Below, piece by piece: positions 3,290 to 28,402 of a DNA stretch of 64,000 nt. Below the pieces are notes generated by a model. The model was not told the origin of the DNA, ran no database searches, and was given only the letters and a program-made list of their open reading frames with translations. The position numbers and the translations under genes were made by a program. Origin of the DNA: a virus. The stretch is taken from positions 1 to 64,000 of the IMG/VR virus record IMGVR_UViG_3300043438_001421; one strand, given 5' to 3'. The number at the start of each line of letters is the position of its first letter. Position 1 is the stretch's first letter.

Positions 3290-3679
3290 ATGAAAGAATA
3301 CTACGAATTCCTTATGTTTGAACTTAAGGATATTGAAGAGGAATTTGATATTCCTTCTCAAATTGCTCATGAAATTTGTTTACTTCTTAGTTTAGAAAAT
3401 AACTTCATTCCAGAATCTTTTTTTAGATTATATCTCTCTAAATTAGGTACAGATTATTCTGTACTGTATAATGCCGCAGCTTATTTTTCTGGAGCCAAAT
3501 TTTTGAAAATTGAGTGTGACTGCCCGGAATCTGATAAGATGCTTTGTGATCTTCATTCAGTCAGCGAAAGCGCTTTTTATGAAATCGGTGCAGATGACTT
3601 TGCAAACACCACATCCAAGTGGCAGAAGATCAATCAAAGTATTCAGATGATAAGGACTTCTATATTCAATGATTGTTAA
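3290..3679 (+). CDS. Hypothetical protein, first gene of the rightward arm
   Basis: 129 residues, acidic, mostly helical. Residues 1-50 look like a helical bundle with alternating Glu and Leu/Phe, and a Cys pair (ECDCPESDKMLCDLH) sits around residue 75. No family is recognised. GGAG lies five bases before ATG 3290. Being first behind the divergent region, it is a candidate early or regulatory protein. It overlaps the start of the deformylase gene by 11 bases, so the two are probably translated together. Confidence 0.6.
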   Translation: MKEYYEFLMFELKDIEEEFDIPSQIAHEICLLLSLENNFIPESFFRLYLSKLGTDYSVLYNAAAYFSGAKFLKIECDCPESDKMLCDLHSVSESAFYEIGADDFANTTSKWQKINQSIQMIRTSIFNDC

Positions 3680-4190
3680 GTACCCTGATAATAGACTGGA
3701 TCAAGTATCTGTTTCAGCTTTAGAAAATCTAACTAAAAATGAGATAGATAATCTTTGCTATGAAATGCGCAAAGAATGCTGGGAAGTAAATGGATTGGGT
3801 ATTGCAGCCATCCAAATTGGACAGCCGTATAGAGTCTTCGGGATTTTGAATCCAAATAAAAGAGATCTTATGTGGATGATTGATCCACAAATCAGAAGGT
3901 GTTCAGGGAGTATAACTTATACAGAAGGATGTCTTTCTATCCCCGGATACTTCTGGGATGTTACTAGATACAATAAACTTTCTATCTCCTTTTTTGATTC
4001 TAAGGGTGCTAAGCACTACAGAACATTCTCAGGAATTCATGCGAGGATTATTCAGCATGAAATGGATCACATCGATGGACTTCTCATTCCAGATCTTATG
4101 GATGATGATAAATTTATTAACTTCGATAATCACTTTTCTTCAAGCCTTCCAGCATCGGAGTATGATGCTCCAAAGATTAGTGTGATTTAA
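3669..4190 (+). CDS. def: Peptide deformylase
   Basis: 173 residues, usual length for the family. All three signature motifs are present: GLGIAAIQ (42-49), EGCLS with Cys88 (86-90) and QHEMDH with His130, Glu131 and His134 (129-134). Cys and the two His bind the metal, and Glu is catalytic. The enzyme removes the formyl group from nascent proteins. Phage copies are thought to keep phage protein maturation going late in infection. It lies immediately before a tRNA gene. Confidence 0.95.
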   Translation: MIVKYPDNRLDQVSVSALENLTKNEIDNLCYEMRKECWEVNGLGIAAIQIGQPYRVFGILNPNKRDLMWMIDPQIRRCSGSITYTEGCLSIPGYFWDVTRYNKLSISFFDSKGAKHYRTFSGIHARIIQHEMDHIDGLLIPDLMDDDKFINFDNHFSSSLPASEYDAPKISVI

Positions 4191-8275: not shown

Positions 8276-8297
8276 AGCGGGGGCGCAAGCCCCCGCT
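8276..8297 (+). terminator. Hairpin terminator after the endolysin
   Basis: A perfect 9-bp stem AGCGGGGGC/GCCCCCGCT with a GCAA loop follows the endolysin stop by 19 bases, then TTTC. The T-tract is short, so termination may be partial. A new promoter motif starts four bases later. Confidence 0.6.
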
Positions 8298-8300
8298 TTC

Positions 8301-8309
8301 TGCTATTAT
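8301..8309 (+). promoter_or_regulatory. Extended -10 promoter (TGC-TATTAT) for the sugar cassette
   Basis: TGCTATTAT lies 8 bases before ATG 8318, directly behind the endolysin terminator. The sugar cassette therefore looks like a separate transcription unit, again with little or no leader. Confidence 0.45.
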
Positions 8310-8317
8310 AGAGTGAT

Positions 8318-9193
8318 ATGAACTTTGATTCGATGACTCTATCAAAAATTCTCGGTAGAGATGAACATAATCTAAATAGTATTTTAGAAGATATGTGTTC
8401 TTTTTATAAAGATAAAAATATATTGATTACTGGCGCCAATGGGAGCCTTGGTCATGGAATTAGAGATTTTTTATACTCTAACAAAGTTATTTGCAATGTT
8501 ATCAATACAGATATTTTACTTTATCCTCAAGATAAAAGTTGGAAATATTTAGATGTCACTAATTTTGATAATGTTGACTCAATTGTATCTGATGATATAG
8601 ATATCATCTTCCATTTTGCAGCAGATAAGCACGCTCCGAAGGGCGAGCTTACTCCGGATACAACAATTGATATCAATCTGAATGGAACTAAAAATCTTAT
8701 AAATTCTATAAAAAATACTAAGACTAAGATTGTACTTGCTAGTACTTGTAAATGTTGTAATCCCGAAACTATTTATGGATCTACTAAATTAATTGCAGAA
8801 AGATTAATATTAAATTCTGGACATAATGTAGCAAGATTTTATAATGTAGTGCAATCTTCTGATAATGTTTTTGAAATTTGGAATAATATTGAAGATCCTT
8901 CTAAGCATAAAGTAATGCCATGTAATAGATATTTTATTACAATTGATGAGGCAGTTGCTTTGACATTATTTACTGGCATGAGTGAATCTGGACGCTATAC
9001 GATTTCACCGGGCGAAAGTAGATACATGGTTGATCTGCATTTTGATTTGTATGGAGTGGATGGGGTTGCGGAATTCCCTAGGCGCGGTGACAGAGTTGCT
9101 GAGCTTAGACACAGTACGTCGGAAAATATTGTCAATATTGATTCATATCCATTTGAGAAAATTTCAAGTGAACACGATGCTTCAATGCAATAG
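8318..9193 (+). CDS. NAD-dependent sugar-nucleotide epimerase/dehydratase (CapD/PseB-like)
   Basis: 291 residues, short-chain dehydrogenase fold. GANGSLGHG near residues 39-47 is the NAD-binding loop, and FHFAADKHAPKGEL near 100-113 and AST-x-KCCNP near 140-149 resemble UDP-GlcNAc 4,6-dehydratases of the CapD/FlaA1/PseB group. Tyr153 and Lys157 form the catalytic YxxxK. The expected product is a 4-keto-6-deoxy sugar nucleotide, the substrate for the aminotransferase encoded next. The gene is AT-richer than the endolysin before it. It overlaps the next start by 17 bases. Confidence 0.8.
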   Translation: MNFDSMTLSKILGRDEHNLNSILEDMCSFYKDKNILITGANGSLGHGIRDFLYSNKVICNVINTDILLYPQDKSWKYLDVTNFDNVDSIVSDDIDIIFHFAADKHAPKGELTPDTTIDINLNGTKNLINSIKNTKTKIVLASTCKCCNPETIYGSTKLIAERLILNSGHNVARFYNVVQSSDNVFEIWNNIEDPSKHKVMPCNRYFITIDEAVALTLFTGMSESGRYTISPGESRYMVDLHFDLYGVDGVAEFPRRGDRVAELRHSTSENIVNIDSYPFEKISSEHDASMQ

Positions 9194-10292
9194 GCCTTCT
9201 ATAAAAGAAGTAGATATAGAAAAAGTTAGTGATCAGTTACGTTCTGGAAATCTAGCTCAGGGAGATAAAGTTGCTGAATTAGAGTGGAGAATGTCTAGAT
9301 TAACAGATAGAGAAAACTCTGCTGCTTATAGCAGTGCTACTTCTATTTTCGAGGCAATCTTCGCTTATATTGGAGTTGAAGAGGGCGATGAAATTATATT
9401 GTCTCCTTTGACTTTTAAGTCTGTTCCGTATGCAGTCATCAGAGCTGGAGCCACTCCAGTATTTATAGATACAAATGAGTACTATCTTTCTGATTGGAAT
9501 AAGATTGATTCACTTCTAAATAAAAATACAAAAGTTATTATCTCAACAAGCCTCTACGGGATGCCAGATCCGAATTTCGATAGGCTTCTTAAATCATTAG
9601 ATTACTATCCAGATGTTTGGTTAATTGAAGATAATGCTCAGTCAATTGGAGCAAAATATAATAAGACAGATCACATTGGATCTTGGGAATCAAGATCTAA
9701 TTTTTCTATTTTCTCTTTTTATGCAACAAAAAATATAACAGGTGGAGAAGGTGGAGTTGTTGTATTCAATGAAGATACCGATTTTTTTCATTCTTATAGA
9801 AATAATGGAATTTGTAAAAACTTTTTTAACAAAAATTGCGTAGGAACTAATATGAGAATGACTGATATAGAAGCCACTCTCATCCTTTCTCAGCTTGATA
9901 GAGTTAAACAAGTTACAGAAACAAGAAATAATCAGGCCAATATATATCATAATATGTTGAGTATTGAAAACTTACAATTTAAAAATTTAGATAAAAATGC
10001 TACTCATGCATATCATCATTATACATTGACTTTGCCAAAAAATCTTGATAGATCATATGTGCTTGCTTGTCTTGAGTCATATGGAATTCATGCCGGGATA
10101 TATTACGAGTACTTGGTTAATTACGACAAGAGTTTTACTGCTCCCATCCGAGCTTCGAATACTCCGAATGCTCTGCTACAATCTAAGCAAGCGATATGTC
10201 TCCCGCTTGGAGAGACTTTGAGTCATTCTGATATAAAGTATATTGCACAAAAGTTTGAGGAGATCATTAATAGTGAATCAACAGCCAACTAA
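9177..10292 (+). CDS. DegT/DnrJ/EryC1-type sugar aminotransferase
   Basis: 371 residues from ATG 9177; longer in-frame starts fall inside the dehydratase gene. It belongs to the PLP-dependent sugar aminotransferases: an N-terminal SGNLAQGDKVAELE segment, a YSSATS pocket, EDNAQSIGAKY near residue 157 and the PLP lysine Lys185 in FYATKNITGGEGG. A C-terminal LPLGETLSHSDI is typical. It should transfer an amino group to the keto sugar made by the 8318-9193 enzyme, as PseC does after PseB. AT-rich codon use matches its neighbours. Confidence 0.88.
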   Translation: MLQCNRPSIKEVDIEKVSDQLRSGNLAQGDKVAELEWRMSRLTDRENSAAYSSATSIFEAIFAYIGVEEGDEIILSPLTFKSVPYAVIRAGATPVFIDTNEYYLSDWNKIDSLLNKNTKVIISTSLYGMPDPNFDRLLKSLDYYPDVWLIEDNAQSIGAKYNKTDHIGSWESRSNFSIFSFYATKNITGGEGGVVVFNEDTDFFHSYRNNGICKNFFNKNCVGTNMRMTDIEATLILSQLDRVKQVTETRNNQANIYHNMLSIENLQFKNLDKNATHAYHHYTLTLPKNLDRSYVLACLESYGIHAGIYYEYLVNYDKSFTAPIRASNTPNALLQSKQAICLPLGETLSHSDIKYIAQKFEEIINSESTAN

Positions 10293-10425
10293 TCAGTATG
10301 AACAGTTTTTGCGTAATGAAATTCAATGTATTAATAGCGCAGGTATAGTGTCAAAAGTCTCTGGATATAATAGATTTAGTGGAGCTGAAATATTCGCAGT
10401 CTTGAAGAGGTATTTAGATGACTAA
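10273..10425 (+). CDS. 50-residue protein inside the sugar cassette
   Basis: Starts at GTG 10273 (GAGGAG eight bases upstream), inside the end of the aminotransferase gene, and overlaps the ATP-grasp start by 8 bases. Fifty residues, helical, with a basic KRYLDD end; no family is recognised. The size and helical nature would allow an acyl- or aminoacyl-carrier-like or partner role, but the DSL/DSF serine of a carrier protein is absent. Its conserved-looking overlaps with both neighbours argue that it is a real gene. Confidence 0.45.
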   Translation: MNQQPTNQYEQFLRNEIQCINSAGIVSKVSGYNRFSGAEIFAVLKRYLDD

Positions 10426-11467
10426 AATTCTATTACTTGGATGTGACGGCAATGCTGGTATAAATTATGCTAAATCTATATGGGCATCCGACAAGACTAT
10501 TGAAATTATTGGTACAGGATTTAGTAAATATCATATTAATGTAGCTCAAGATGCTGGAATTGACACTCATTTGATAGATCCGAATGAATGGGATCTTGCC
10601 AATAAGAAGCAATTTATCTATGATGCAATTTCTTACGGAGTTGATTTTATCCATGCGCAGCCTGAAGAAGAAGTTCACGATCTATGTCTTATGCAAAATG
10701 ATGAAAAAATTAGATATAGAACTTTTGGAAAAAATATAGAAGAGTGGCGTATATTCAATGATAAAGGGCAGACTATGCAAAATAGTTCTATAAAATTTTA
10801 TTCATTTATGGAAGTTAAAAATACTCCTAGATTTTTTAATCATTTAATGGCTAAAAATAATACAGTCTGGATCAGAGCTAGAAGCGGGGCTGGGAGCAAG
10901 TGGGCTCTTCCTGTCGTCTCGTTTCAGCAGGCTGAGAACTGGGTAAATTATTTGTCCATTAGTAAAGGCGCTAATCCTCACGACTTCATTCTCTCAGAAT
11001 ATCTACCCGGTAAAGAGTATGCTGTTCAATTATTCTATATCGATGGAGAGCTTTTCCATTGTCAGGCCAGAGAGAGAGTGGAGCATCACTTTGCCAAGCA
11101 GATGGTTTCTGGCCAAAGTTCAACTCCATCGGTGGCGAAAACTGTTGATAACCCAGAAGTCACATTCTATGCAGATTCATGCGTAATGGACTGCGTAGAA
11201 AAACCAAATGGAATTTATGGCGTTGATATGAGATACAATAGCGATGATGAGCCAGTTATGACTGAAATAAACTACGGCAGATACTTTACAACAAGTAATT
11301 TTTTTGCTAATATTGGAGTAAACACTCCATATGAAGAATATTTATATGTAGTCTCTGGAGAGAAGCCGGAGAAAAGAATTGATCAGGTCAAAGATGAGAT
11401 GTATTGGATTCGAGGACTTGATCATGAACCTGTATTGATGGAGACTCTTCCTTATGACTTTAGTTGA
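10418..11467 (+). CDS. ATP-grasp ligase
   Basis: 349 residues. The N-terminal Rossmann-like part (LLLGCDGNAGINYAKS) and the ATP-grasp core (IRARSGAGSKWALPV near 149-163, then LSEYLPGKEYAVQLF near 193-207) lead to a metal-binding GIYGVDMRY and TEINYGRYFTTS near 268-296. It resembles the carbamoyl-phosphate-synthase-like ATP-grasp family that joins a carboxylate to an amine or thiol through an acyl phosphate. Between an amino-sugar aminotransferase and glycosyltransferases, a plausible job is N-acylation of the new amino sugar with an amino acid or another acid. That substrate is inference. Confidence 0.82.
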   Translation: MTKILLLGCDGNAGINYAKSIWASDKTIEIIGTGFSKYHINVAQDAGIDTHLIDPNEWDLANKKQFIYDAISYGVDFIHAQPEEEVHDLCLMQNDEKIRYRTFGKNIEEWRIFNDKGQTMQNSSIKFYSFMEVKNTPRFFNHLMAKNNTVWIRARSGAGSKWALPVVSFQQAENWVNYLSISKGANPHDFILSEYLPGKEYAVQLFYIDGELFHCQARERVEHHFAKQMVSGQSSTPSVAKTVDNPEVTFYADSCVMDCVEKPNGIYGVDMRYNSDDEPVMTEINYGRYFTTSNFFANIGVNTPYEEYLYVVSGEKPEKRIDQVKDEMYWIRGLDHEPVLMETLPYDFS

Positions 11468-12011
11468 TGTTACTGTATGCACGACTAGCATTCCGCATAG
11501 AAGCGAGATGCTGCAGGAATGCATGAGGTCTGTTAGAAATCAGACTTGGAAGCCAAAGGCTCATCTTATTGCCATTGACTACGAGCGCGTCGGTGGAGCG
11601 AGGACGCTGAACACATTGATTGATGCTGCCAAGACAGAGTGGGTTGCGCCACTCGCTGACGATGATCTTTTTTATCCACAGTATATCGAAAAGCTTCTTA
11701 CAAATGCCGGTGACGCTGATATGATATATCCTTGGTGCGAAGTTACTGGAACGAGAAATGGATGGAACCCAAACTCTCTACTTGATATCGAAAGATTAAA
11801 GGAAAACAATTACATTCCAGCAACTGTTTTGCTACGTAAATCGGCTTGGGAAAAGCTCGGAGGCTACCCCGAAGTTGTTTGCGAAGATCATGCGATGTGG
11901 CTGAAGATGATTGAGGCCAATATGCAAATCAAATGCTTACCGGAAATTCTTTGGCAGTATCGTTTTCATGGAAAAAATATAAGCGACGGAAATAGCCACG
12001 AGTCTGTATGA
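11454..12011 (+). CDS. Family 2 glycosyltransferase
   Basis: 185 residues, GT-A fold. VTVCTTSIPHR at the N-terminus binds the nucleotide sugar, the metal-binding acidic triad is ADDD near residue 68, and CEDHAMWLKM near 143 supplies the later acidic motif. It overlaps the ATP-grasp gene by 14 bases. Donor and acceptor are unknown. The product of the cassette's amino-sugar enzymes is the likely donor. Base composition is less AT-rich than in the flanking genes. Confidence 0.85.
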   Translation: MTLVDVTVCTTSIPHRSEMLQECMRSVRNQTWKPKAHLIAIDYERVGGARTLNTLIDAAKTEWVAPLADDDLFYPQYIEKLLTNAGDADMIYPWCEVTGTRNGWNPNSLLDIERLKENNYIPATVLLRKSAWEKLGGYPEVVCEDHAMWLKMIEANMQIKCLPEILWQYRFHGKNISDGNSHESV

Positions 12012-12646
12012 TGATTAGCACAGTAAGCATTATGTCATGTAAACGAACACCTTCTTTTTTAGAAGATACAGTTAAATCAATACCAGATAATCTAAATATT
12101 GAAATATTTTATCAAGGCGATGTAAATGAAATTTCTTTTGATAATATCAATATAAAGCAAGTAGATTATATTGAAGATGCACACAGAGTTCATCATAATA
12201 GCCAATATAACTATGCTTCAACCTTGATGAATAGCAAAGATGGATTTATAGTTGAAGATGACATTGAGTTTTCTGTAAATTTTTCTAGCCATATGGCTGA
12301 TTTAAATAATTTACTAGATAATATGCAATGTAAATATGCGCTAGCAATTTACTCATGTTATAACTGGAGTAAAAAGGGGGCCAGTTTAGTTGACTATCCT
12401 GTAGAAGCATTTTATGGAACTCAAGGTATGATATATGATATCGAAACTGCACGATCATTTGGTAATTTTCTTATGGGCAGGATCGGAGTTGAGCCATATG
12501 ATTTCGCCCTAAAAACTTACATACAAGAAGTTGACCCAGATGTCAGATTGCTGGCGACAGGTAGTTCTCTTATTCAACATAGAGGAGATTTGTCAACTGG
12601 ACTTGGTGTATTTCATAAAGCACCAAATTTTGTGGATCATCTATGA
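12008..12646 (+). CDS. Glycosyltransferase-like protein (GT-A fold)
   Basis: 212 residues. An N-terminal STVSIMSCKRTPSF, a VEDDIEF acidic motif near residue 78 and an HRG-containing C-terminal part near 196 resemble GT-A glycosyltransferases of phage and lipopolysaccharide loci. Two overlapping ATGs (12008 and 12011) share the TGA of the previous gene; either could be used. Substrates are unknown. The gene is clearly AT-rich. Confidence 0.65.
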   Translation: MMISTVSIMSCKRTPSFLEDTVKSIPDNLNIEIFYQGDVNEISFDNINIKQVDYIEDAHRVHHNSQYNYASTLMNSKDGFIVEDDIEFSVNFSSHMADLNNLLDNMQCKYALAIYSCYNWSKKGASLVDYPVEAFYGTQGMIYDIETARSFGNFLMGRIGVEPYDFALKTYIQEVDPDVRLLATGSSLIQHRGDLSTGLGVFHKAPNFVDHL

Positions 12647-13278
12647 TATATCCAATTATATTACATCATGATAAATCACTTGAGTATACAAAGTCTTTAG
12701 AGACAAATTTATTTGGACGTGAATATGATGTCATTGATTCTTCAACTCTTCATACTTCATTTACTCAAAGTTTTAATATAGCTTGCATAAAAGCTTATAC
12801 ACATTTTCTTACTAATAAGTATACTCACGTTATGATATGTAATAATGACATATCTTTGAATAGTAGTCAGCTCGATATTCTTGATCAAAAAATTGGTGGT
12901 ATGGATGGAATATTTACGCCTAGCGCAAATTCGCCGCATCACTCTGTAATGTCAGCGGTTGGATCGGATGATCTGAGAGAAGTTCCTTGGATAGAGTTTA
13001 TCTGCCCGATTATCTCCTTTAGCGTTATTGACACAATTGGTCTCCTTGACACAAAGCTCCTTCATGGATGGGGAGTTGAGCTTGATTATTGCTATAGAGC
13101 TAGTCTTCAAAATTTTAAAACATATTTAGTACAAAATGTCATAGTTCATCACTATGAGCATAGATCTCAAGATAATCATAATGATTATAGACATCATGCG
13201 AACTCGGAGATGAACCATGTGCTCAGGGGTAAGTACGGCGACGGCTGGCAGGAAATTTTGAAATATCCTCAGTGGTAG
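12643..13278 (+). CDS. Family 2-like glycosyltransferase
   Basis: 211 residues. ICNNDIS near residue 68 gives the DXD-like metal site, and GVELDYCYRA near 145-154 is the acidic motif of rhamnosyltransferase-like GT2 enzymes, followed by a His-rich HHYEHRS region. It overlaps the previous gene by four bases (ATGA) and closes the cassette. With the two before it, it could build a short glycan stepwise. Confidence 0.72.
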   Translation: MIYPIILHHDKSLEYTKSLETNLFGREYDVIDSSTLHTSFTQSFNIACIKAYTHFLTNKYTHVMICNNDISLNSSQLDILDQKIGGMDGIFTPSANSPHHSVMSAVGSDDLREVPWIEFICPIISFSVIDTIGLLDTKLLHGWGVELDYCYRASLQNFKTYLVQNVIVHHYEHRSQDNHNDYRHHANSEMNHVLRGKYGDGWQEILKYPQW

Positions 13279-13318: not shown

Positions 13319-13392
13319 CCGGCAGTAGCTCAGTTGGTGAGAGCACAAGTCTTATATACTTGCGGTCGGTGGTTCAATCCCACCCTGCCGGA
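13319..13392 (+). tRNA. tRNA-Ile (anticodon UAU)
   Basis: Acceptor CCGGCAG/CTGCCGG, D stem GCTC/GAGC, anticodon stem CAAGT/ACTTG with loop CTTATAT, T arm GGTGG/CCACC with TTCAATC. Discriminator A, no encoded CCA. It reads AUA directly, unlike the usual CAU-lysidine tRNA for that codon. Confidence 0.93.
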
Positions 13393-13405
13393 CTAAGGAG
13401 TTTAT

Positions 13406-13565: not shown

Positions 13566-13991
13566 ATGCAAACTTTTCTCCCGTCAGATGACTTTGCTCT
13601 GTGCGCTATGAGCCTTGATAGACAGAGGCTTGGTAAGCAAAGAGTTGAGACTTTACAGATCATGCAAACTTTAGCGGGCTTGAGTCGCGGGAAGGGTTGG
13701 ATCAATCATCCAGCTACGAAAATGTGGAAAGGGCATGAGGATTATCTAATGCTTTATCAGATTGCTATCTGCCAAGAGTGGACTAGCAGAGGTTATAAAG
13801 ATACTTGTATGTGGAAAACTTTTGATGCCCTTGGCCAGATTGAGTATCCATCAACATACCCAGAGTGGATGGGGGATAACTCAATTCACTCTTCTCATAG
13901 AAGCAACTTGCTTCGCAAAGATCCAGATTTTTATTCACAGTTTGGCTGGCAGGAATCTGATGATCTAGACTATGTATGGCCAGTCCAATAG
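13566..13991 (+). CDS. MSMEG_6728-family protein, related to pyrimidine dimer DNA glycosylases
   Basis: 141 residues. The N-terminal MQTFLPSDDFALCAMSLDRQRLGKQRVE pattern, WINHPATKMWKGHEDYL near 44-60 and EWTSRGYKDT near 71-80 match the MSMEG_6728 / Pyr_excise group that includes T4 endonuclease V-like proteins. A role in repairing UV dimers is suggested by family only. The start lies four bases after the preceding stop. Overlap with the next gene is avoided if that gene starts at 14003. Confidence 0.75.
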   Translation: MQTFLPSDDFALCAMSLDRQRLGKQRVETLQIMQTLAGLSRGKGWINHPATKMWKGHEDYLMLYQIAICQEWTSRGYKDTCMWKTFDALGQIEYPSTYPEWMGDNSIHSSHRSNLLRKDPDFYSQFGWQESDDLDYVWPVQ

Positions 13992-14002
13992 AAAGAGGTA
14001 AT

Positions 14003-14173
14003 ATGCCGAAGTTAAGAGTTTCGAAGGAAGCACTGCCGGAGTCGGAGTCTTCTGAAATTGATATCTATCCCGATGGCGACAAGAGTCGTCCGAGAGTCGG
14101 GGTTTTGAAGATCGATAAGGGCAAGTCAAATCTTATTTTAGATCCCGGTATTCTTCCGTACCAGAGCTTCTGA
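14003..14173 (+). CDS. Small hypothetical protein
   Basis: 56 residues from ATG 14003 (GAGG upstream at 13995-13998). Polar and basic-acidic: a SESSEIDIYPDGD stretch, then a strand-like RVGVLKIDKGKSNLILDPG. No family is recognised. An in-frame upstream start at 13976 would overlap the previous gene and has no ribosome-binding site. Confidence 0.5.
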   Translation: MPKLRVSKEALPESESSEIDIYPDGDKSRPRVGVLKIDKGKSNLILDPGILPYQSF

Positions 14174-14177
14174 AATC

Positions 14178-14186
14178 TGATATAAT
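14178..14186 (+). promoter_or_regulatory. Extended -10 promoter (TGA-TATAAT)
   Basis: A consensus TGATATAAT with a 38-base spacer to ATG 14225. Right at the predicted start site is a hairpin with arms CACGTT/AACGTG (14190-14204), which could be an operator or stabilise the mRNA end. A GGAG site precedes the ATG. Confidence 0.5.
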
Positions 14187-14224
14187 CTACACGTTGCGAA
14201 CGTGGCGAACTGAATGGAGTAATT

Positions 14225-14548
14225 ATGGAAGATAGTTGGATTGATAAGCTCGCTGATGAAACTATGGCCTCGATGCCCCAGCCTGAAAAAGAATTTGTTC
14301 AAGCTATGATGGACATTGTAGAGCGTCATGGAAAGCTTGCAAATAATGATGGCAAGGGTATTTGGGTTGGTTATGTTGAAGCGTCTGAAAATGATGTGGC
14401 CTCTAGAGGCATTAAGTGCTTGAACTGCGCCCACTATGAGGGCGATGGGATGTGTCACATCGTTGTTCAGACAGTTGAGCCGGAAGGTCTTTGCAGACTT
14501 GCAGCAATTCCCGATGCGATTGTCCGTCTTAATGATATGATGTCATAG
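14225..14548 (+). CDS. Cys-motif protein of unknown function
   Basis: 107 residues. The N-terminal half is helical and acidic. The C-terminal half has CLNCAHYEGDGMCHIV followed by VEPEGLCRL: four cysteines spaced C-x2-C-x8-C-x12-C, with Pro-x-Gly-x-Cys near the last. The spacing recalls small Fe-S or zinc modules seen at the ends of some phage structural proteins. The GIWVGY segment before it looks like a conserved patch. Function is unknown. Confidence 0.6.
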   Translation: MEDSWIDKLADETMASMPQPEKEFVQAMMDIVERHGKLANNDGKGIWVGYVEASENDVASRGIKCLNCAHYEGDGMCHIVVQTVEPEGLCRLAAIPDAIVRLNDMMS

Positions 14549-14586
14549 TCCGAACGAAGCGCGAAATCCGTGTGAAGGCAGTGTTG

Positions 14587-14609
14587 GCGGGGGAGGTTAT
14601 CTCCCCCGC
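14587..14609 (+). terminator. Hairpin, probable terminator
   Basis: A perfect 9-bp stem GCGGGGGAG/CTCCCCCGC with loop GTTAT, followed by TCTTAA. It stands between the 14225-14548 gene and the next ATG. The T-tract is poor, so it may instead be a leader structure of the glycosyltransferase at 14628. Confidence 0.5.
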
Positions 14610-14627
14610 TCTTAATGGGAGATGTAA

Positions 14628-15812
14628 ATGTCCGATTCAATAAAAGTATTAGTTTTTTCAGATCAGCAGATTGAGGCATTGAGCTCAGATCTGCTTTCAA
14701 GATTTTCTATCGATATCAAGCCTTGTGATAATTTTGTAAATAAGGCTTTGTCTGAAAATAAACCTAATGTAATTCTTACATTTGGAGTTCTTGAAGACCA
14801 TCCATCATTGGCTGATCAACCTCTTTGGATTAGAAAAAAGTGGATTCATATTGATGACTTCACAGTCACTCCAGAGCAAATAGCTTCATTGATTGAAGGA
14901 TGCTTTGCTTCTCTTTTCCATGATACAAGAGAGTTTACTGAGCCATTAGTTTCTATTATTACCCCAACTTTTAATACAAAAAATATATTTTGGCCGTATA
15001 GATCTGTCGCTGGTCAGGAGTACAAGAATATTGAGTGGATCATCTATGATGACGGTTCCGATAGCGAAGACACTATCAACTCAATCAAGCAGATTGCTTC
15101 TGTAGACCCTAGGATAAAAGTATTTTTTGCTGAGCACTCCGGATCAATCGGAGAGGTTAAGCACAATGCCTTTATGCTTGCTGAAGGGGAGATTCTTGTA
15201 GAACTTGATCATGATGACGAACTTACTCCTTGGTGTGTTTCTTCAATTGTTGAGGCTTTCACCAAATTCCCCGACGCCGGCTTCGCCTACACAGACTGCG
15301 CCGAAGTGATTGGCGATGAACACGAAAATGCATCATACCCTGATGGCTGGGGATTTGGATACGGCAGTTATCGCTCCGAGTTTTGGCGTGGACGGGATTA
15401 TCTAGTGTCTAACTATCCAGATATTAACTCCAAGACTATCCGGCATATCGTAGGTGTACCTAATCATGCTAGGGCGTGGAATGCAGCCTTCTACAAGTTA
15501 ATTGGCGGACACAATAAGAGCCTCTTTGTCGCTGATGATTATGAGCTTTTGGTTAGAACTTGGCTTTCAACTCCTATGGTTCATATTCGTCGCTTCGGGT
15601 ATATTCAGTATCATCATGAGAACAATACTCAAAAGAAGCGCAATGCTGAAATACAAAATCTTGTTGCTTTGATTCACAGATCATATGAAGATAAAATTCA
15701 TCAAACATTTTTAGATTTTGAAATTGACGATTTTATATGGCAAGATGGCGTGCTGAATTGGGGTATTGAGAATCCCGAACAAACTCCCATCACTAACTAT
15801 GTAATGGATTAA
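14628..15812 (+). CDS. Two-part family 2 glycosyltransferase
   Basis: 394 residues. Residues 1-100 form a Rossmann-like N-terminal domain (KVLVFSDQQIE, NVILTFGVLEDHP). Residues about 107-330 are a GT2 domain with VSIITPTFNT, WIIYDDGS, ELDHDDELTP (DXD) and a GG-x4-LFVADDYELLVR acidic motif. GGGAG lies upstream of ATG 14628. The N-terminal part looks like the vestige of a GT-B half or a regulatory domain. It lies outside the main sugar cassette but probably serves the same glycan. Confidence 0.85.
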   Translation: MSDSIKVLVFSDQQIEALSSDLLSRFSIDIKPCDNFVNKALSENKPNVILTFGVLEDHPSLADQPLWIRKKWIHIDDFTVTPEQIASLIEGCFASLFHDTREFTEPLVSIITPTFNTKNIFWPYRSVAGQEYKNIEWIIYDDGSDSEDTINSIKQIASVDPRIKVFFAEHSGSIGEVKHNAFMLAEGEILVELDHDDELTPWCVSSIVEAFTKFPDAGFAYTDCAEVIGDEHENASYPDGWGFGYGSYRSEFWRGRDYLVSNYPDINSKTIRHIVGVPNHARAWNAAFYKLIGGHNKSLFVADDYELLVRTWLSTPMVHIRRFGYIQYHHENNTQKKRNAEIQNLVALIHRSYEDKIHQTFLDFEIDDFIWQDGVLNWGIENPEQTPITNYVMD

Positions 15813-15816
15813 AATT

Positions 15817-15984
15817 ATGAAATTTGTAAAAGGTAACGCTAATAAGGGCTACTCAGTTGGCCACGATAGAAAAATGCGGGCGCATAATCCCCGATTAGTT
15901 ATTCCAGAGTCTGAGGTAGTTACTAGACAGATGACTGAGCAAGACTGGATTCGTTTCTACGAAAATAAACGTAAGACTAAATAA
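15817..15984 (+). CDS. 55-residue basic protein, paralogue 1
   Basis: Begins at ATG 15817, four bases after the glycosyltransferase stop. It is highly basic and ends with MTEQDWIRFYENKRK. The gene at 16002 encodes a second 55-residue protein with the same layout (GxxxK start, HxPRL centre, TR-x-MTE-x-DWIRFYENKRK end), so this is a tandem duplication. Such basic peptides could bind nucleic acid or ribosomes. Function is unknown. Confidence 0.65.
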   Translation: MKFVKGNANKGYSVGHDRKMRAHNPRLVIPESEVVTRQMTEQDWIRFYENKRKTK

Positions 15985-16001
15985 ATTAGTAAGATACTAT
16001 T

Positions 16002-16169
16002 ATGAGACACATTAAAGGTAGTACGGGAAAAAAGACATATTGGGTTAGCGGAGGAAAAGCTATCCATAAGCCTCGCCTTCGGGTTGCTCCGTCTAAAGCG
16101 TCTACTAGAAAGATGACTGAAGAAGACTGGATTCGCTTTTACGAGAATAAGCGTAAGAGGAAGAAGTAA
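16002..16169 (+). CDS. 55-residue basic protein, paralogue 2
   Basis: Starts at ATG 16002 with AGATACTAT just upstream but no clear ribosome-binding site. Of the last 20 residues nearly all match the 15817-15984 protein (MTE-x-DWIRFYENKRK block), while the N-terminal third has diverged. DNA identity is also high over that block. It ends four bases before tRNA-Leu. Confidence 0.65.
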   Translation: MRHIKGSTGKKTYWVSGGKAIHKPRLRVAPSKASTRKMTEEDWIRFYENKRKRKK

Positions 16170-16173
16170 TTTA

Positions 16174-16255
16174 GCGGGCGTGGTGGAAATGGTATACACA
16201 GGAGGCTTAAAACTTCCCGCCTTTTGGATTGTGGGTTCGAATCCCACCGCCCGCA
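16174..16255 (+). tRNA. tRNA-Leu (anticodon UAA)
   Basis: Acceptor GCGGGCG/CGCCCGC, anticodon stem GGAGG/CTTCC with loop CTTAAAA, a class II variable arm, and T arm GTGGG-TTCGAAT-CCCAC. Discriminator A, no CCA encoded. It reads UUA. Confidence 0.93.
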
Positions 16256-16274
16256 CTTTTCAAAGGAGAAAGCA

Positions 16275-16496
16275 ATGGATATTGTTCAGCAACTAAGAGA
16301 TCGTGCTTGTCCCTCTGGGCTTCCACACACAGGAGATAATCCTGAGGAAGATCATGGTCATACTGATTGTTGGCTTCATCATCAAGCAGCAGATGAGATT
16401 GAGCGCCTGCGCTCCGAGCTTGGCCAGCGTGGTTGTTGTGAGTGGGATTGTCCTAAATGTGGTGCTCACATTTACAGTAAAGTGTTGGATCGATAA
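16275..16496 (+). CDS. Small zinc-knuckle protein
   Basis: 73 residues from ATG 16275 with AGGAG upstream. The N-terminal half resembles phage proteins with a WLHHQAADEIERLRSEL coiled-coil helix. The C-terminus carries CCEWDCPKCG, a likely zinc ribbon half. An upstream in-frame start lies inside tRNA-Leu and is rejected. Function is unknown. Confidence 0.6.
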   Translation: MDIVQQLRDRACPSGLPHTGDNPEEDHGHTDCWLHHQAADEIERLRSELGQRGCCEWDCPKCGAHIYSKVLDR

Positions 16497-16504
16497 AGTA
16501 TTTT

Positions 16505-16578
16505 GTCCTTGTAGCTCAGCGGATTAGAGCGGATGGTTTCTACCCATTAGGTCGGGAGTTCGAATCTCTCCAAGGACG
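16505..16578 (+). tRNA. tRNA-Arg (anticodon UCU)
   Basis: Acceptor GTCCTTG/CAAGGAC, D stem GCTC/GAGC, anticodon stem GATGG/CCATT with loop TTTCTAC, T arm with TTCGAAT. Discriminator G, no CCA encoded. It reads AGA. Confidence 0.93.
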
Positions 16579-16595
16579 CCTGAAAATATCAAATA

Positions 16596-16604
16596 TGATA
16601 TAAT
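16596..16604 (+). promoter_or_regulatory. Extended -10 promoter (TGA-TATAAT), leaderless
   Basis: A full-consensus TGATATAAT only five bases before ATG 16610. The predicted first transcribed base is the A of the start codon, and no ribosome-binding site exists, so this is the clearest leaderless candidate in the window. Confidence 0.55.
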
Positions 16605-16609
16605 CATTT

Positions 16610-17014
16610 ATGGCTGGAATTATTGTAGATATTGATGGAACATTACTCAGTGGCAATAATGGCATTGATAAGACTATTGCTTGGGTTAATGAGAAGTCAA
16701 AGAGCTATACTATCTATCTGGTGACTGGTAGACCAGAAGAAGATAGAGCCAAAACGACAAGAGCTCTCAAGTCAAATGGCGTCAAATATAATAGGCTCTA
16801 TATGAATGATAAATATAAAGATCATGAGTATACTATGGAGCATAAGAGAAATAAAGCAACAGAGTTATTGAAAGATGACAATATCATATTGGCTGTAGAT
16901 AATGATCCTGATGCTAGAGCAGTATACTCAAGACTTGGTATCCCAACCAAGAATCCATCAAGCTTGCCGAAGACTGTTGCCAAAATTGAAGGACTATGGC
17001 AGGGTTTATTTTAA
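16610..17014 (+). CDS. HAD-superfamily phosphatase
   Basis: 134 residues, small HAD core. Motif I is VDIDGTLL (Asp7 nucleophile, Asp9), motif II sits in LVTGRPE, a Lys-containing HKRNKA supplies motif III and AVDNDPDA is motif IV. No cap domain is evident, so a large substrate such as a nucleic-acid 3'-phosphate is possible (compare the phosphatase half of T4 polynucleotide kinase). The substrate is not known. Confidence 0.8.
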   Translation: MAGIIVDIDGTLLSGNNGIDKTIAWVNEKSKSYTIYLVTGRPEEDRAKTTRALKSNGVKYNRLYMNDKYKDHEYTMEHKRNKATELLKDDNIILAVDNDPDARAVYSRLGIPTKNPSSLPKTVAKIEGLWQGLF

Positions 17015-17016
17015 TC

Positions 17017-17025
17017 TGATATACT
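17017..17025 (+). promoter_or_regulatory. Extended -10 promoter (TGA-TATACT), leaderless
   Basis: TGATATACT ends six bases before ATG 17032 and starts two bases after the HAD gene stop; there is no ribosome-binding site. Confidence 0.5.
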
Positions 17026-17031
17026 CCAAAA

Positions 17032-17283
17032 ATGGAACATCCAATCTGCACTATGATGTGTGAGGACTGTGGAAAATTTGCCATTATGCATGAAAATGGT
17101 CTGACTATTTTCTTGATTAATAAAGAGTTTTTTGCTATGTCAAGATGCTTGTTCTGCAATAGAGCTGTTAGAGATAGTATTTCGAAAGAAGTATGTATCT
17201 CTCTTTTCTGGGAAAATGTTAAAATATTTAACTTCAACACAGGTGAGCAAATTTTGGACGAAAAGATTTTGGAGAGTATATGA
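17032..17283 (+). CDS. Zinc-ribbon hypothetical protein
   Basis: 83 residues. CTMMCEDCG near 6-14 and RCLFCN near 38-43 give two Cys pairs of a zinc ribbon, with a strand-rich remainder. Function is unknown. It overlaps the next gene (glycosyltransferase) by four bases. Confidence 0.6.
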   Translation: MEHPICTMMCEDCGKFAIMHENGLTIFLINKEFFAMSRCLFCNRAVRDSISKEVCISLFWENVKIFNFNTGEQILDEKILESI

Positions 17284-18266
17284 AGCAAGTAGGTTGGTTT
17301 AGTCCCCCCGGCATTGGCGACAAAATGGGCTACGGCTACGCAGCAGTTATGTTAATCAAAGCCCTTCAGGAGCATGATGTTAAAGTTGCTTATGATAATC
17401 GCGAGTCTAAGTGTCATATATCGTTTATTCAGCCAGAATTTTATAGCGGAAACTTAGATCAATATAGAGTTGGGTATACTCCTTGGGAGTCATCAGTCGT
17501 ACCAGATAGCTGGAGAGAAACGATGCCTCAGATGCAGGAAATCTGGACTCCATCTCAATATTGTGTAGATATCTTCGAGGAAAATAATCTTAATAAAATT
17601 ATTCGCAAAGTTCCTCACGGCATTGATCCTGAATTGTGGAAGATTGAAAATAGATACTTAACTGATAAGTTCATCTTCTTTCATGTCGGAGGTCCAACAG
17701 CAAGAAAAGGTGGCCAGAGAGTAGTAGATGCATTTCTAGATTTATTTGATGGCAATGACGATGTAATGTTGATTTTGAAATCAAATGAAGACACAGAATG
17801 TCGATTCTATGAAAATGGCGTTGACTTTAAGAGCGCAGCAGCTCATCCCCAGATCGTGTCGATTAACTACCAAGTTGCTGTAGAAGATTTAGTTCGTCTG
17901 TACAACAGATCTCACTGCCTAGTGTATCCTACTAACGGAGAGGGCTTTGGGTTGATTCCTTTTCAGGGGATAGCAACGGGCCTTCCGACTATTGTAACAA
18001 ATGCGACGGCCTGCGCAGACTTTGCCGAATTGTCTGTCCCTCTTGATTCAAAGCCATCCAAGGGAGTCGGCATTCACCTTGGAGATTGGGTTGAGCCTGA
18101 TGCAGATGATCTTCGGGATAAGATGAGATATGTTTACGACAATTATAACGAAGTCAAAGAGAAAACTTTGGAGTCAGCGAGACTTATCCACAACACTCAA
18201 ACGTGGTATCACGTCGCTGCTCAGGTTATCGACATTTTGGGTGAAAAAATCACGCAAATGGCATGA
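17280..18266 (+). CDS. Family 4 glycosyltransferase (GT-B)
   Basis: 328 residues. An N-terminal GIGDKMGYGYAA loop, PHGID-x-ELW near residue 115, HVGGPTARKGG near 138-148 (donor site) and YPTNGEGFGLIPFQG near 216-230 mark a GT4 enzyme. In the usual E-x7-E motif Glu221 is kept but the second acid is Gln229. This may alter activity or donor binding. Neighbouring genes do not reveal its acceptor. It overlaps the 17032-17283 gene by four bases. Confidence 0.85.
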   Translation: MKQVGWFSPPGIGDKMGYGYAAVMLIKALQEHDVKVAYDNRESKCHISFIQPEFYSGNLDQYRVGYTPWESSVVPDSWRETMPQMQEIWTPSQYCVDIFEENNLNKIIRKVPHGIDPELWKIENRYLTDKFIFFHVGGPTARKGGQRVVDAFLDLFDGNDDVMLILKSNEDTECRFYENGVDFKSAAAHPQIVSINYQVAVEDLVRLYNRSHCLVYPTNGEGFGLIPFQGIATGLPTIVTNATACADFAELSVPLDSKPSKGVGIHLGDWVEPDADDLRDKMRYVYDNYNEVKEKTLESARLIHNTQTWYHVAAQVIDILGEKITQMA

Positions 18267-22809: not shown

Positions 22810-23148
22810 ATGGCAGCACCAGCGAATTATCCATTATCAATTAGAATTGGCGATACTGAGACGGTATCTGTTACGCTTCAAGATGCCGATGGTGTTGCTA
22901 TCAACATCACTGGAAGAACCTATTCAGCGCAGGTTAGAGAGAAGGCAAGTTCTGATTCTGCACTTGCTTCATTTACTTGTTCAGTAGTAAATGCTGCTCA
23001 AGGGAAGTTCGCTTGCACCTTGTCGTCAGCAACTACAACGGCTCTTTCGCCAGCAAATGCCGTATGGGATCTTCAGGAGAATAATGGAGGGGTGATCACA
23101 ACTTTGATGGCGGGCGAAGCTGTGATCTCTAGAGATGTAACTAGATGA
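22810..23148 (+). CDS. BppU-like N-terminal domain protein, fibre cassette 1
   Basis: 112 residues beginning [16 protein letters not shown], a pattern found at the start of phage baseplate upper proteins (BppU/DUF2479) and of many fibre-adaptor proteins: a polarised strand, [24 protein letters not shown] and VWDLQEN. It probably forms a small beta domain that attaches fibres to the particle. It overlaps the giant collagen-like gene by four bases (ATGA). Confidence 0.7.
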
Positions 23149-26100
23149 GCGATAACGTCACACTTAGGGTAGTTGAATCTCTTGTTCTTCGCCCTAGTGG
23201 TGACGGTGTTGTTCTTCAGAAAGTTGAGCCCGACACAGTTTTTTTGCAACAGAATATTGATGTTGCGATTTTGCGGGTTGATACTGATGATGTAATTATC
23301 AGACCTTCTGAAGAAGTTGTCCTTAAAAAAGATTCTGTTGACATTATTGCTTCAGGAGTTTCTGGTCCTATGGGGCCTCAAGGTGTTCAGGGGCCTCAAG
23401 GACCCGGTGGATTTGTTGGGTCCGATGGTGCTCAGGGGCCGCAAGGTCCTCAAGGACCTTTTGGTGGTCCACAGGGTACACAAGGTCCTCAAGGCCCGCA
23501 AGGCGCTCAGGGATCTCAAGGCCCGCAAGGATCGCAAGGTTCGACTGGTGTTCAAGGTGCAACTGGCGCTACCGGGGCGACTGGAGCACAAGGTTCTCAG
23601 GGGCCTCAAGGAACGCAAGGTCCGCAGGGTTCTCAGGGTGCTACTGGTTCAATTGGTCTGACTGGCGCTCAAGGAAGTCAAGGCCCGCAAGGAGCACAGG
23701 GATCTCAAGGACCTCAAGGAACTCAGGGTGCTACTGGTTCGCAAGGCGCTACTGGCTCTCAGGGCTCTACTGGTGTGACTGGAGCGCAAGGCGCTCAAGG
23801 TCCGCAAGGAGCAATTGGCGCTACAGGTATTCAAGGAAGTCAGGGTCCTCAAGGCGCTATTGGGGCGACGGGGGCTCAGGGCAATGAAGGCCCTCAGGGT
23901 GCTCAAGGACCAAAGGGCTCACAAGGTGCAACAGGTGCAACTGGGCCTCAAGGTTTTCAGGGTCCACAAGGAGATCAAGGTCCTCAGGGAGCACAATCAA
24001 CTGTTCAGGGTCCACAAGGAACTCAAGGCCCTCAGGGGCCTCAAGGCGCACAAGGATCAACTGGTGCAGCCTCTACTGTAGCAGGCCCTCAAGGCCCACA
24101 AGGCTCTCAGGGAATTCAGGGCCCTCAAGGTCCTCAAGGTCCTCAGGGTGCAACTGGAGCTCAGGGGGCGACGGGAGCGCAAGGTTCAACTGGCGCTCAA
24201 GGTTCTCAAGGTCCACAGGGACCTCAAGGATCAACTGGTTCCCAAGGTGCTACTGGATCTCAAGGTGTCATAGGAGATCAAGGTCCTCAAGGTACACAGG
24301 GTCCTATTGGAGCAACTGGTCTTACTGGAGCGCAAGGTAGTCAAGGCCCTCAAGGCCCTCAAGGCCCTCAAGGCCCTCAAGGCAATCAAGGCCCTCAAGG
24401 TTCTACAGGAGCGGAATCCACTGTTCCCGGACCTCAAGGCGTTCAGGGGCCGCAAGGTTCTCAAGGATCTCAAGGGGCAACTGGCTCGCAAGGAACTCAG
24501 GGCCCTCAGGGAAGTGCTGGCGTTCAAGGGACTCAGGGACCTCAGGGTTCTCAAGGTGTCGCTGGATCGCAAGGTCCTCAAGGACCTGAGGGATCTCAGG
24601 GCAGTCAAGGATTTCAGGGCGCAAATGGTGCTCAAGGACCCGCTGGTCCTCAGGGATCTCAAGGTTCAACGGGATCACAAGGAAGTCAAGGTCCCCAAGG
24701 TCCTGCTGGCGTTCAAGGAACACAGGGTCCTGAAGGAGCGCAGGGTGCCAATGGTCCTCAGGGCGATCAGGGCCCTCAAGGTGTTGTTGGAGCGCAAGGA
24801 TCTACTGGTGCCCAAGGTTCGCAAGGCCCACAAGGCTCTCAGGGTGCGACGGGCGCTCAAGGATCTCAAGGTCCTCAGGGGTCACAAGGCTCTGTTGGTC
24901 CACAGGGAGATCAAGGGCCTGTTGGTTCACAAGGAAGTCAAGGTCCTGCCGGAGTCCAAGGTTCGCAAGGCCCTCAAGGGCCACAAGGTGCTGTCGGCTC
25001 CACTGGCGCTCAAGGTGATCAAGGCCCGATTGGCCCTCAAGGTAATCAGGGGCCTCAGGGTAATGTTGGGGCACAAGGTTCTCAGGGGCCACAGGGCGCA
25101 TCTGGATCTACTGGTGCTCAGGGAAGTCAGGGTCCTCAGGGGCCACAAGGTTCTCAGGGTTCCGTTGGTCCTCAAGGTAGTCAAGGTTCATCTGGAGAGC
25201 AAGGAGATCAAGGCCCACAAGGACCTGTTGGCTCACAAGGAAGTCAAGGTCCTTCCGGGCCTCAGGGTAGCCAAGGTCCTCAGGGCATTGGTGGTGATCA
25301 AGGTGTTCAAGGACCTCAAGGACCTAATGGTAGTCAAGGAGCTCAAGGTTTTCAAGGCCCGCAAGGCGCTACTGGCAATACTGGCCCTCAAGGTTTTCAA
25401 GGCCCGCAAGGCGCTACTGGCGATACTGGCCCGCAAGGTGTTCAAGGCCCGACTGGCCCGCAAGGCGATCAAGGCCCACAAGGCTCTACTGGTTCTACTG
25501 GCCCAACTGGCCCCCAAGGTTTTCAAGGCCCGCAAGGCGATACTGGCCAGCAAGGTTTTCAAGGCCCGACTGGCCCGCAAGGCGATCAAGGCCCACAAGG
25601 CTCTACTGGTTCTACTGGCCCAACTGGCCCACAAGGTTTTCAAGGCTCTACTGGCCTGACTGGCGATACTGGCCCGCAAGGCGATCAAGGCCCACAAGGC
25701 TCTACTGGTTCTACTGGCCCAACTGGCCCACAAGGAACACAAGGTCCTCAAGGACCACAGTCTACTGTAGCAGGTCCTCAAGGAGTACAAGGCGCTCAAG
25801 GTCCTCAAGGTCCTCAAGGTCCACAAGGTGCAACCGGAACGCAAGGAGCGGGCGGGGCGTTGGGGTATTGGGGTTCTTTCTATGACATGACGGATCAGCC
25901 ATTAGTTTCTACAACTGTTGCCCAAGTTGTTTCTATTGGATCAACTGCTGATGGAAATGGTGTCACCGTTGAGAGTGGCGATGAGATCACCTTCGCTTAT
26001 GCCGGCGTCTACAGTCTTACGTTCTCTATACAGGTAACTAACTATGCAAACTCTGTTGAGAAGTCAATCTTTTGGCTCAAGTTGAATGGATCGGATTATC

Positions 26101-27937: not shown

Positions 27938-28402
27938 ATGACTACTATTGTTAATGACGTTTCTGATGTAGGTATTTATAATATTGTGGGGGATCAAGGA
28001 ACAACCTTTATCCGCCAAATTGTCTACAAGAATTCTGCTGGGACTGCGATTAATCTTGGCACTGGCGCTTCTGCTCATATGATGGCTAGAAAGTCGTATC
28101 CCGCAACTCTGAAGACTGCGGCCTACAGAAGTGATCCTGTTATCTGGATAAGTTCTGACGATCTTCAATACATCGGATCAACACAGGCAATTACTCTCAC
28201 TCCAGCTACCGGAATAATTAATATTTCAATCCCGTCATCTTTGATGGGAAGCGTTGAAGCCGGTATATATGATTATGATCTTGAAGTTAGACTTGGAACA
28301 TCCCCCGGAGTTGGTTCTGCCGGGAATATTATTAAAATTATTCGCGGTTTATTTGAAGTAAGACAGCAGATGACGTACTTTAGTGGAGAGTATTATTACT
28401 AA
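27938..28402 (+). CDS. BppU-like N-terminal domain protein, fibre cassette 2
   Basis: 154 residues starting at ATG 27938 with GAGGT upstream. [30 protein letters not shown]-type opening and a later [12 protein letters not shown] follow the DUF2479/BppU plan also seen at 22810, but the sequence is longer and diverged. Its stop overlaps the second collagen-like gene (TAATG). With that gene it repeats the adaptor-plus-fibre organisation. Confidence 0.72.

Follow-up and report, generated by a model that had tools for sequence, protein, structure and literature searches.

Nucleotide-sugar dehydratases of the PglF/PseB/Pen group use an Asp-Lys acid/base pair, while TunA, the tunicamycin UDP-N-acetylglucosamine (UDP-GlcNAc) 5,6-dehydratase, carries the motif TCE..Yx3K with Cys in place of the Asp (PMC8987622). 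ATP-grasp enzymes encoded beside amino-sugar genes have precedents in the Shewanella sfm genes (PMC3765264) and in the type B flagellin locus of Clostridioides difficile, where flagellin lacks its terminal peptidylamido sugar once the ATP-grasp gene CDR20291_0245 is lost (PMC5207246). Here we describe a cassette of glycan genes at positions 8318-13278 of a 64,000-base stretch, hereafter the window, out of the 65,125-base IMG/VR virus record IMGVR_UViG_3300043438_001421. Since the ribonucleotide reductase of this virus is nearest to those of Actinomycetia phage DSL-LC01 (52%) and Mycobacterium phage Gaia (50%), its host is likely actinobacterial. An earlier note, made from the sequence of the window, had read the locus as a unit that makes, modifies and transfers an amino sugar, with the ATP-grasp enzyme forming an amide. 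Our comparison supports this view: the locus is probably a swappable glycan-cargo cassette with which an acylated amino sugar would be made and then attached to an acceptor.

The locus is a cargo hotspot with a probable, exchangeable acylation step

Fifteen loci were fetched via the flanking Pdg gene, and later finds were added; L003 (IMGVR_UViG_3300044675_005110), practically the same virus as the window (99.98%), was left out as an independent relative. The comparison identifies the interval between the endolysin gene and tRNA-Ile/Pdg as a cargo hotspot with differing glycan cargo. In the window the order is SDR-DegT-(remnant)-ATP-grasp-GT2-GT-GT, where SDR is a short-chain dehydrogenase/reductase and GT a glycosyltransferase. 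L002 has SDR-DegT-methyltransferase-ATP-grasp-GT2-GT, L016 SDR-DegT-hexapeptide-GT2-GT-GT and L075 SDR-DegT-hexapeptide-GT2-GT. L018 carries the two last glycosyltransferases only, L017 two glycosyltransferases, and L020 and L099, which have neither SDR nor DegT, carry glycosyltransferases, a methyltransferase and a NeuD/PglD-like acyltransferase. Four phages thus have in common the block SDR-DegT-X-GT2, in which X is either the ATP-grasp enzyme (window, L002) or an LpxA/VioB-related hexapeptide transferase (L016, L075), and the recurrence of the block in L002, L016 and L075 is more than chance. The gene order, which the earlier note had proposed to look for in other phages, also recurs in rearranged form in the unrelated phage L173. 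Purifying selection is clear between the window and L002, with ratios of nonsynonymous to synonymous substitution rates of 0.19 for the SDR, 0.05 for the ATP-grasp enzyme and 0.03 for GT2; several other such comparisons were saturated.

The hexapeptide proteins of L016 and L075 resemble LpxA and NeuD/VioB-type sugar acyltransferases and sit exactly in the ATP-grasp slot. Both kinds of enzyme are also found with a related SDR, termed STCK after its motif and described below, elsewhere among phages. L173 (contig 3300029319_006288) reads STCK SDR-HAD-methyltransferase-ATP-grasp-DegT, and L174 (contig 3300030099_007533), from outside the phage group of the window, reads STCK SDR-hexapeptide (left-handed beta-helix, LbH)-DegT. 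The 171-kb large phage contig L127 (IMGVR_UViG_3300010885_057925) has STCK SDR-acyl carrier protein (ACP)-AMP-binding ligase-ketoreductase-hexapeptide (LbH)-DegT, a block that apparently supplies the acyl donor itself. Of the 17 STCK contigs, 16 have an acylating gene at the locus of the SDR (13 hexapeptide, three ATP-grasp, none with both there); the 17th, L118, ends at the SDR. Because a hexapeptide acyltransferase fills the same slot, this exchange, seen in two phage groups, independently supports, without proving, the earlier guess of amide-type acylation, namely that the ATP-grasp enzyme would N-acylate the amino sugar.

The ATP-grasp enzyme matches ATP-grasp_3 (PF02655, 6.6e-6), scoring 26.7 bits where the cut-off is 23.2, and its metal-binding Glu-x-Asn region (T282, E283, I284, N285) is invariant in six homologues. 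No relative was detectable in INPHARED phages (50,697 records) or PLSDB plasmids, the ATP-grasp profile gave no match in a genome scan, and 299 Pseudomonadota gave no match and 300 Bacillota only three weak partial ones. Matches were found in four of 248 Bacteroidota genomes, two of them at about 4e-60 and 6e-60. These two best homologues lie near flagellar-type genes (identified by eye) together with Gfo/Idh- and HAD-type genes, one of the loci, L108, also holding GT2 and methyltransferase genes. The locus of another homologue is of the capsule/nonulosonate type and holds a gene judged by eye to be NeuB-like, a cytidylyltransferase, Gfo/Idh, HAD and DegT, and one further homologue has DegT and CapD nearby. 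The earlier statement that the combination matches no described phage system therefore holds for the ATP-grasp enzyme in INPHARED, but bacterial precedents and a giant-virus parallel exist.

A 50-codon open reading frame (ORF) separates DegT from the ATP-grasp gene. At this place L002, whose DNA is 71-75% identical, has a 232-codon S-adenosylmethionine (SAM) methyltransferase that starts from the homologous GTG (Methyltransf_23, 1.4e-11). The ORF of the window consists of the first 15 residues of the L002 protein joined in frame to its last ~35, with ~182 codons missing, and by this alignment it is the remnant of an internal in-frame deletion. The match to both ends of the methyltransferase lends no support to the view of this ORF as a functional small protein and rules out a carrier protein (LysW/ACP-like); since the 50-codon "gene" is a remnant, the cassette is not "complete" either, as had been claimed. 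Because the remnant overlaps DegT with its start and the ATP-grasp gene with its stop, it may persist for translational coupling of the overlapping genes. In the bacterial flagellar locus L108, a protein homologous to the L002 methyltransferase (28% over 152 amino acids) is encoded close to the ATP-grasp homologue, so the two enzymes probably once belonged together.

The DegT protein matches the DegT domain (Pfam, 3.2e-65), and the previously noted pyridoxal phosphate (PLP) lysine, Lys185, is invariant in three relatives. Among the three proposed glycosyltransferases, the first is confirmed by Pfam as GT2 (4.3e-9) and recurs in every SDR cassette as well as in L020/L099; the second and third have no significant Pfam match of their own. 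The AlphaFold model of the second (predicted local distance difference test, pLDDT, 79) matches GnT-I at an E-value of 1.5e-6 and KfiA at 7e-5 in Foldseek, and its relative in L018 matches GT25 at 2e-4, which makes it a probable GT-A glycosyltransferase. For the third, the DUF707 match of a relative (8e-4) and a conserved NND/WGxELDYCYR pattern suggest a probable GT2-like enzyme.

The first enzyme belongs to a divergent SDR clade

The SDR matches Polysacc_synt_2 (Pfam, 6.8e-24; 85 bits against a cut-off of 20.2), and its nearest relatives by PDB match are PglF/PseB/Pen, at ~30% identity. Its motif is T143-C144-K145, plus Y153 and K157, so that Cys144 occupies the position of the catalytic Asp. 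We found TCK instead of the [ST]DK pair in the window, L002, L016, L075 and 13 further viral contigs; Asp is present in 39 STDK relatives and in all canonical close relatives surveyed among bacteria. No T-C-K requirement was set in finding the four cassette members. The 13 others came from the DNA pattern TCK..NP....YG in IMG/VR, which yielded 18 contigs, 17 of them with homologous SDRs; as this pattern itself requires T-C-K, N148-P149 and Tyr153, only Glu150 and the homology of 17/18 matches are unbiased among its finds.

In a maximum-likelihood tree the 17 STCK proteins split from the 39 STDK proteins with support 100/100, and masking the triad residue and removing three long branches left the split unchanged. 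Glu150, which the pattern does not require, is present in all 17 STCK and in none of the 39 STDK proteins, and therefore Cys144 and Glu150 look like a coupled active-site change. The position of Tyr153 is Met in 38 of the 39 STDK proteins and Leu in one, a contrast that carries no weight. No STCK SDR relative above ~30% identity was found in INPHARED, and the clade was found in none of 596 cellular genomes, a count that is uninformative, as only ~0.65 matches would be expected at a rough estimate of the viral-contig density; restriction to viruses is not claimed. These sequence comparisons make STCK a divergent SDR clade whose members have so far come from viral contigs alone. A metal site formed from CKCC was ruled out, since L075 reads CKSG there and, of the Cys residues, the first alone is invariant. 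L006 is an unrelated RmlB-type gene.

The earlier note had matched the first two steps to PseB/PseC chemistry. This is not supported: the SDR lacks the catalytic Asp and scores 66.1 bits against an NCBIfam equivalog cut-off of 407.75 for PseB, and DegT scores 178.5 bits against 423.5 for PseC. The SDR motif and these cut-offs argue against membership in the full Pse pathway; the downstream steps PseH, PseG, PseI and PseF were not found among the cassette genes, the window as a whole not having been scanned gene by gene.

A proposed pathway to an acylated amino sugar

We infer the following course, including its substrate, SDR product and acyl group. The SDR would first oxidise and dehydrate a nucleotide sugar of the host, probably UDP-GlcNAc; the resulting keto intermediate would be transaminated to an amino sugar by DegT, judged by its family and Lys185. 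At the expense of ATP, the ATP-grasp enzyme would then join the amine to a small carboxylic or amino acid, a step that the hexapeptide exchange supports. The ancestral methyltransferase, here deleted to a remnant, would once have added a methyl group, and GT2 with the two GT-A-like enzymes would assemble the sugar or transfer it to an acceptor. Several observations weigh against this course. The D396N change in PglF is cited in PMC10117803 as abolishing activity, and the SDR of the window is without the catalytic Asp. DegT was found in only seven of the 17 STCK records, many of which are fragmentary, and the product of the SDR therefore does not necessarily go to a DegT. Finally, the structure model of the ATP-grasp enzyme is poor (pLDDT 43) and its pocket tells nothing about the substrate.

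In the most conventional version of this pathway the SDR is a plain 4,6-dehydratase with Cys144 or Glu150 as the acid, and the product is an N-acylated 4-amino-4,6-dideoxy-N-acetylhexosamine (bacillosamine-/AltNAc-type). We consider the chances of this version even. It fits the nearest relatives, the retained Lys, Tyr and Lys, the confinement of Glu150 to STCK proteins within the tree and the position of DegT, which comes next and requires a keto group, and acid/base pairs are known to differ among dehydratases (PMC8987622). However, TCK occurs in no 4,6-dehydratase of Table 1 in that paper, where the sole example with Cys, TunA, is a 5,6-dehydratase.

It is unlikely that the SDR is a TunA/Pen-like 5,6-dehydratase, or that it releases a 4-keto-5,6-ene or an undehydrated 4-keto sugar, leading to an unsaturated or otherwise unusual amino sugar. 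Pointing this way are the Cys for Asp in TunA, the deep separate branch of the STCK proteins, which keeps its full support with the triad residue masked, and the best single-sequence PDB match, 6bwc (3e-18), which we take to be Pen, a 5,6-dehydratase. However, STCK proteins have TCK..Yx3K, sharing the Cys with TunA and differing in the base, Lys and not Glu; PglF (WlaL) leads the PDB matches of the STCK profile and TunA is absent from the 60 best-listed ones. Moreover, DegT cannot act on a 5,6-ene that bears a hydroxyl at C4, and a Pal-like partner was not recognised among the cassette genes. We are decidedly sceptical of the further proposal that the STCK active site performs something other than standard 4,6-dehydration (e.g. 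to a 5,6-ene or 4-keto-5,6-ene), giving an amino sugar unknown from cells that is acylated by ATP-grasp or hexapeptide enzymes and placed on virions.

The acceptor

For the acylated amino sugar proposed here, the acceptor is most likely a virion protein, e.g. collagen-like fibres, and otherwise a host surface glycan. We favour the fibres because of the analogy with Megavirinae and because the window encodes two very long collagen-like tail proteins (23145-27890 and 28402-30738; 1581 and 778 amino acids), which are candidate glycosylation acceptors. Placement on the host surface during infection, altering receptors (superinfection exclusion), is somewhat doubtful. The variable cassettes would fit host-driven diversification, and bacterial homologues of the ATP-grasp enzyme serve capsule and flagella; against this, a flippase, a polymerase and an undecaprenyl-phosphate sugar transferase were not seen among the cassette genes, and giant viruses use comparable clusters for virion fibrils (PMC10117803). 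Modification of phage DNA is very improbable, despite the C5-cytosine methylase of this phage (4263-5483, its ORF starting at the end of tRNA-Val) and the existence of T4-type DNA glucosylation, since the ORFs examined include none recognisable as a gene for hydroxymethylation or another base hypermodification and the cassette glycosyltransferases match protein/polysaccharide families.

Layout and surroundings of the cassette

The genes lie in the order and close to the coordinates first reported, each ORF overlapping the next (Table 1). The start of DegT is the ATG at 9177, and the mechanical ORF, which begins at 8982, is too long. The cassette is indeed AT-richer than its surroundings, with a GC content of 0.354 against 0.438 in the rest of the window, and so are the sister cassettes in L016, L002 and L018, but not that in L075. 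A promoter of its own, also proposed earlier, could not be substantiated: the promoter scan lists no site just upstream, and its 41 promoter-like matches, against 23.5 expected from shuffles, are scattered over AT-rich coding DNA. As for the proposed upstream terminator, the hairpin GCGGGGGC-GCAA-GCCCCCGC is present at 8277-8296, but its T tract is poor and the terminator scan made no call, leaving a modest terminator candidate.

Table 1. Features of the cassette and its borders in the window
Feature	Coordinates	Strand	Basis or remark
Hairpin, GC-rich, weak T tract, after endolysin gene	8277..8304	+	Sequence; possible terminator of upstream gene
STCK-type Polysacc_synt_2 SDR, nucleotide-sugar dehydratase-like; Cys144 for catalytic Asp; Lys145, Glu150, Tyr153, Lys157	8318..9193	+	
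DegT/DnrJ/EryC1/StrS PLP aminotransferase, Lys185	9177..10292	+	
50-codon remnant of class I SAM methyltransferase, GTG start	10273..10425	+	Comparison with L002
ATP-grasp carboxylate-amine ligase family protein, EIN motif 283-285	10418..11467	+	Pfam; homologues in bacterial surface-glycan/flagellar loci
GT2 family glycosyltransferase, DDD motif	11454..12011	+	Pfam; in all four SDR cassettes and L020/L099
Probable GT-A glycosyltransferase, GT25/GnT-I-like fold, EDD	12008..12646	+	AlphaFold/Foldseek; relative in L018
Probable GT2-like glycosyltransferase, NND, WGxELDYCYR; weak evidence	12643..13278	+	DUF707 match of a relative; motif
tRNA-Ile bounding the cargo hotspot	13319..13393	+	

Outside the variable cassette the window encodes a GT2 (14628-15812) that in some relatives is missing or has diverged, and a GT4-conflict-type glycosyltransferase (17280-18266) kept in most close relatives covering the region. 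It also has a peptide deformylase (3669-4190) and, just upstream of tRNA-Leu, a 56-base direct repeat (15921-15976 and 16103-16158; 87.5% identical). In L075 the ribonucleotide reductase ORF (13815-17045) has 1076 codons against 673 in the window, with ~400 extra codons inside, possibly an intein. L002 has a D12-class adenine DNA methyltransferase (11133-11864) inserted after Pdg that is not in the window.

Comparison with known systems

Collectively, our results point to a phage cassette for surface glycans that has partly decayed. Its probable acylation step can be exchanged, and its first enzyme comes from an SDR clade that has diverged. On this reading, phages would carry the entire central part of a pathway to acylated amino sugars as an exchangeable module in which either of two unrelated acylating enzymes fills one slot, and STCK defines an enzyme family in which a residue regarded as essential for catalysis is replaced throughout the clade.

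The phage SDR shares with PseB/PglF/WbpM-type UDP-GlcNAc 4,6-dehydratases and Pen, its best PDB matches, the Polysacc_synt_2 SDR fold, GxxGxxG, YxxxK and the Lys base. It differs from them in the Cys for Asp, the invariant Glu150, the soluble 291-residue form, the low identity and scores below the equivalog cut-offs. With TunA it has in common the Cys at the acid position, but TunA has TCE where the phage protein has TCK and was not recovered as a close sequence relative.

The C. difficile type B flagellin locus (GT1-GT3, CDR20291_0244-0247) likewise combines glycosyltransferases, ATP-grasp and a DegT-type aminotransferase, with a terminal amide-bearing sugar on protein (PMC5207246); unlike the cassette, it has its own FdtB-like 3-aminase, FemAB and ornithine cyclodeaminase genes and a bacterial flagellin target. 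Shewanella sfmABCDE pairs a methyltransferase (SfmD) with an ATP-grasp enzyme (SfmE) in an organism with PseB/PseC homologues (PMC3765264), but uses a PseI-like enzyme and is without a GT2 cassette of the phage type. A plasmid capsule operon of Enterococcus hirae (L011) has CapD-DegT-...-ATP-grasp-GT in one operon; its CapD-type protein is longer and carries the STDK motif, and it has LCP, Wzz, CpsD and a sugar transferase.

The Megavirinae fibril glycan clusters (e.g. Mimivirus Vio4NAc) are similar in that a virus encodes a dehydratase, an aminotransferase, an N-acyltransferase, a methyltransferase and glycosyltransferases for virion glycans that vary between clades (PMC10117803). Gene content of this type (dehydratase, aminotransferase, N-acyltransferase and glycosyltransferases) is present in L016 and L075 with their hexapeptide transferase. 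Unlike the window, these clusters belong to eukaryotic giant viruses and have an acetyltransferase where the window has ATP-grasp, which would be its acyl step. If the sugars sit on virions, the cassette would be a bacterial-virus parallel to giant-virus fibril glycans.

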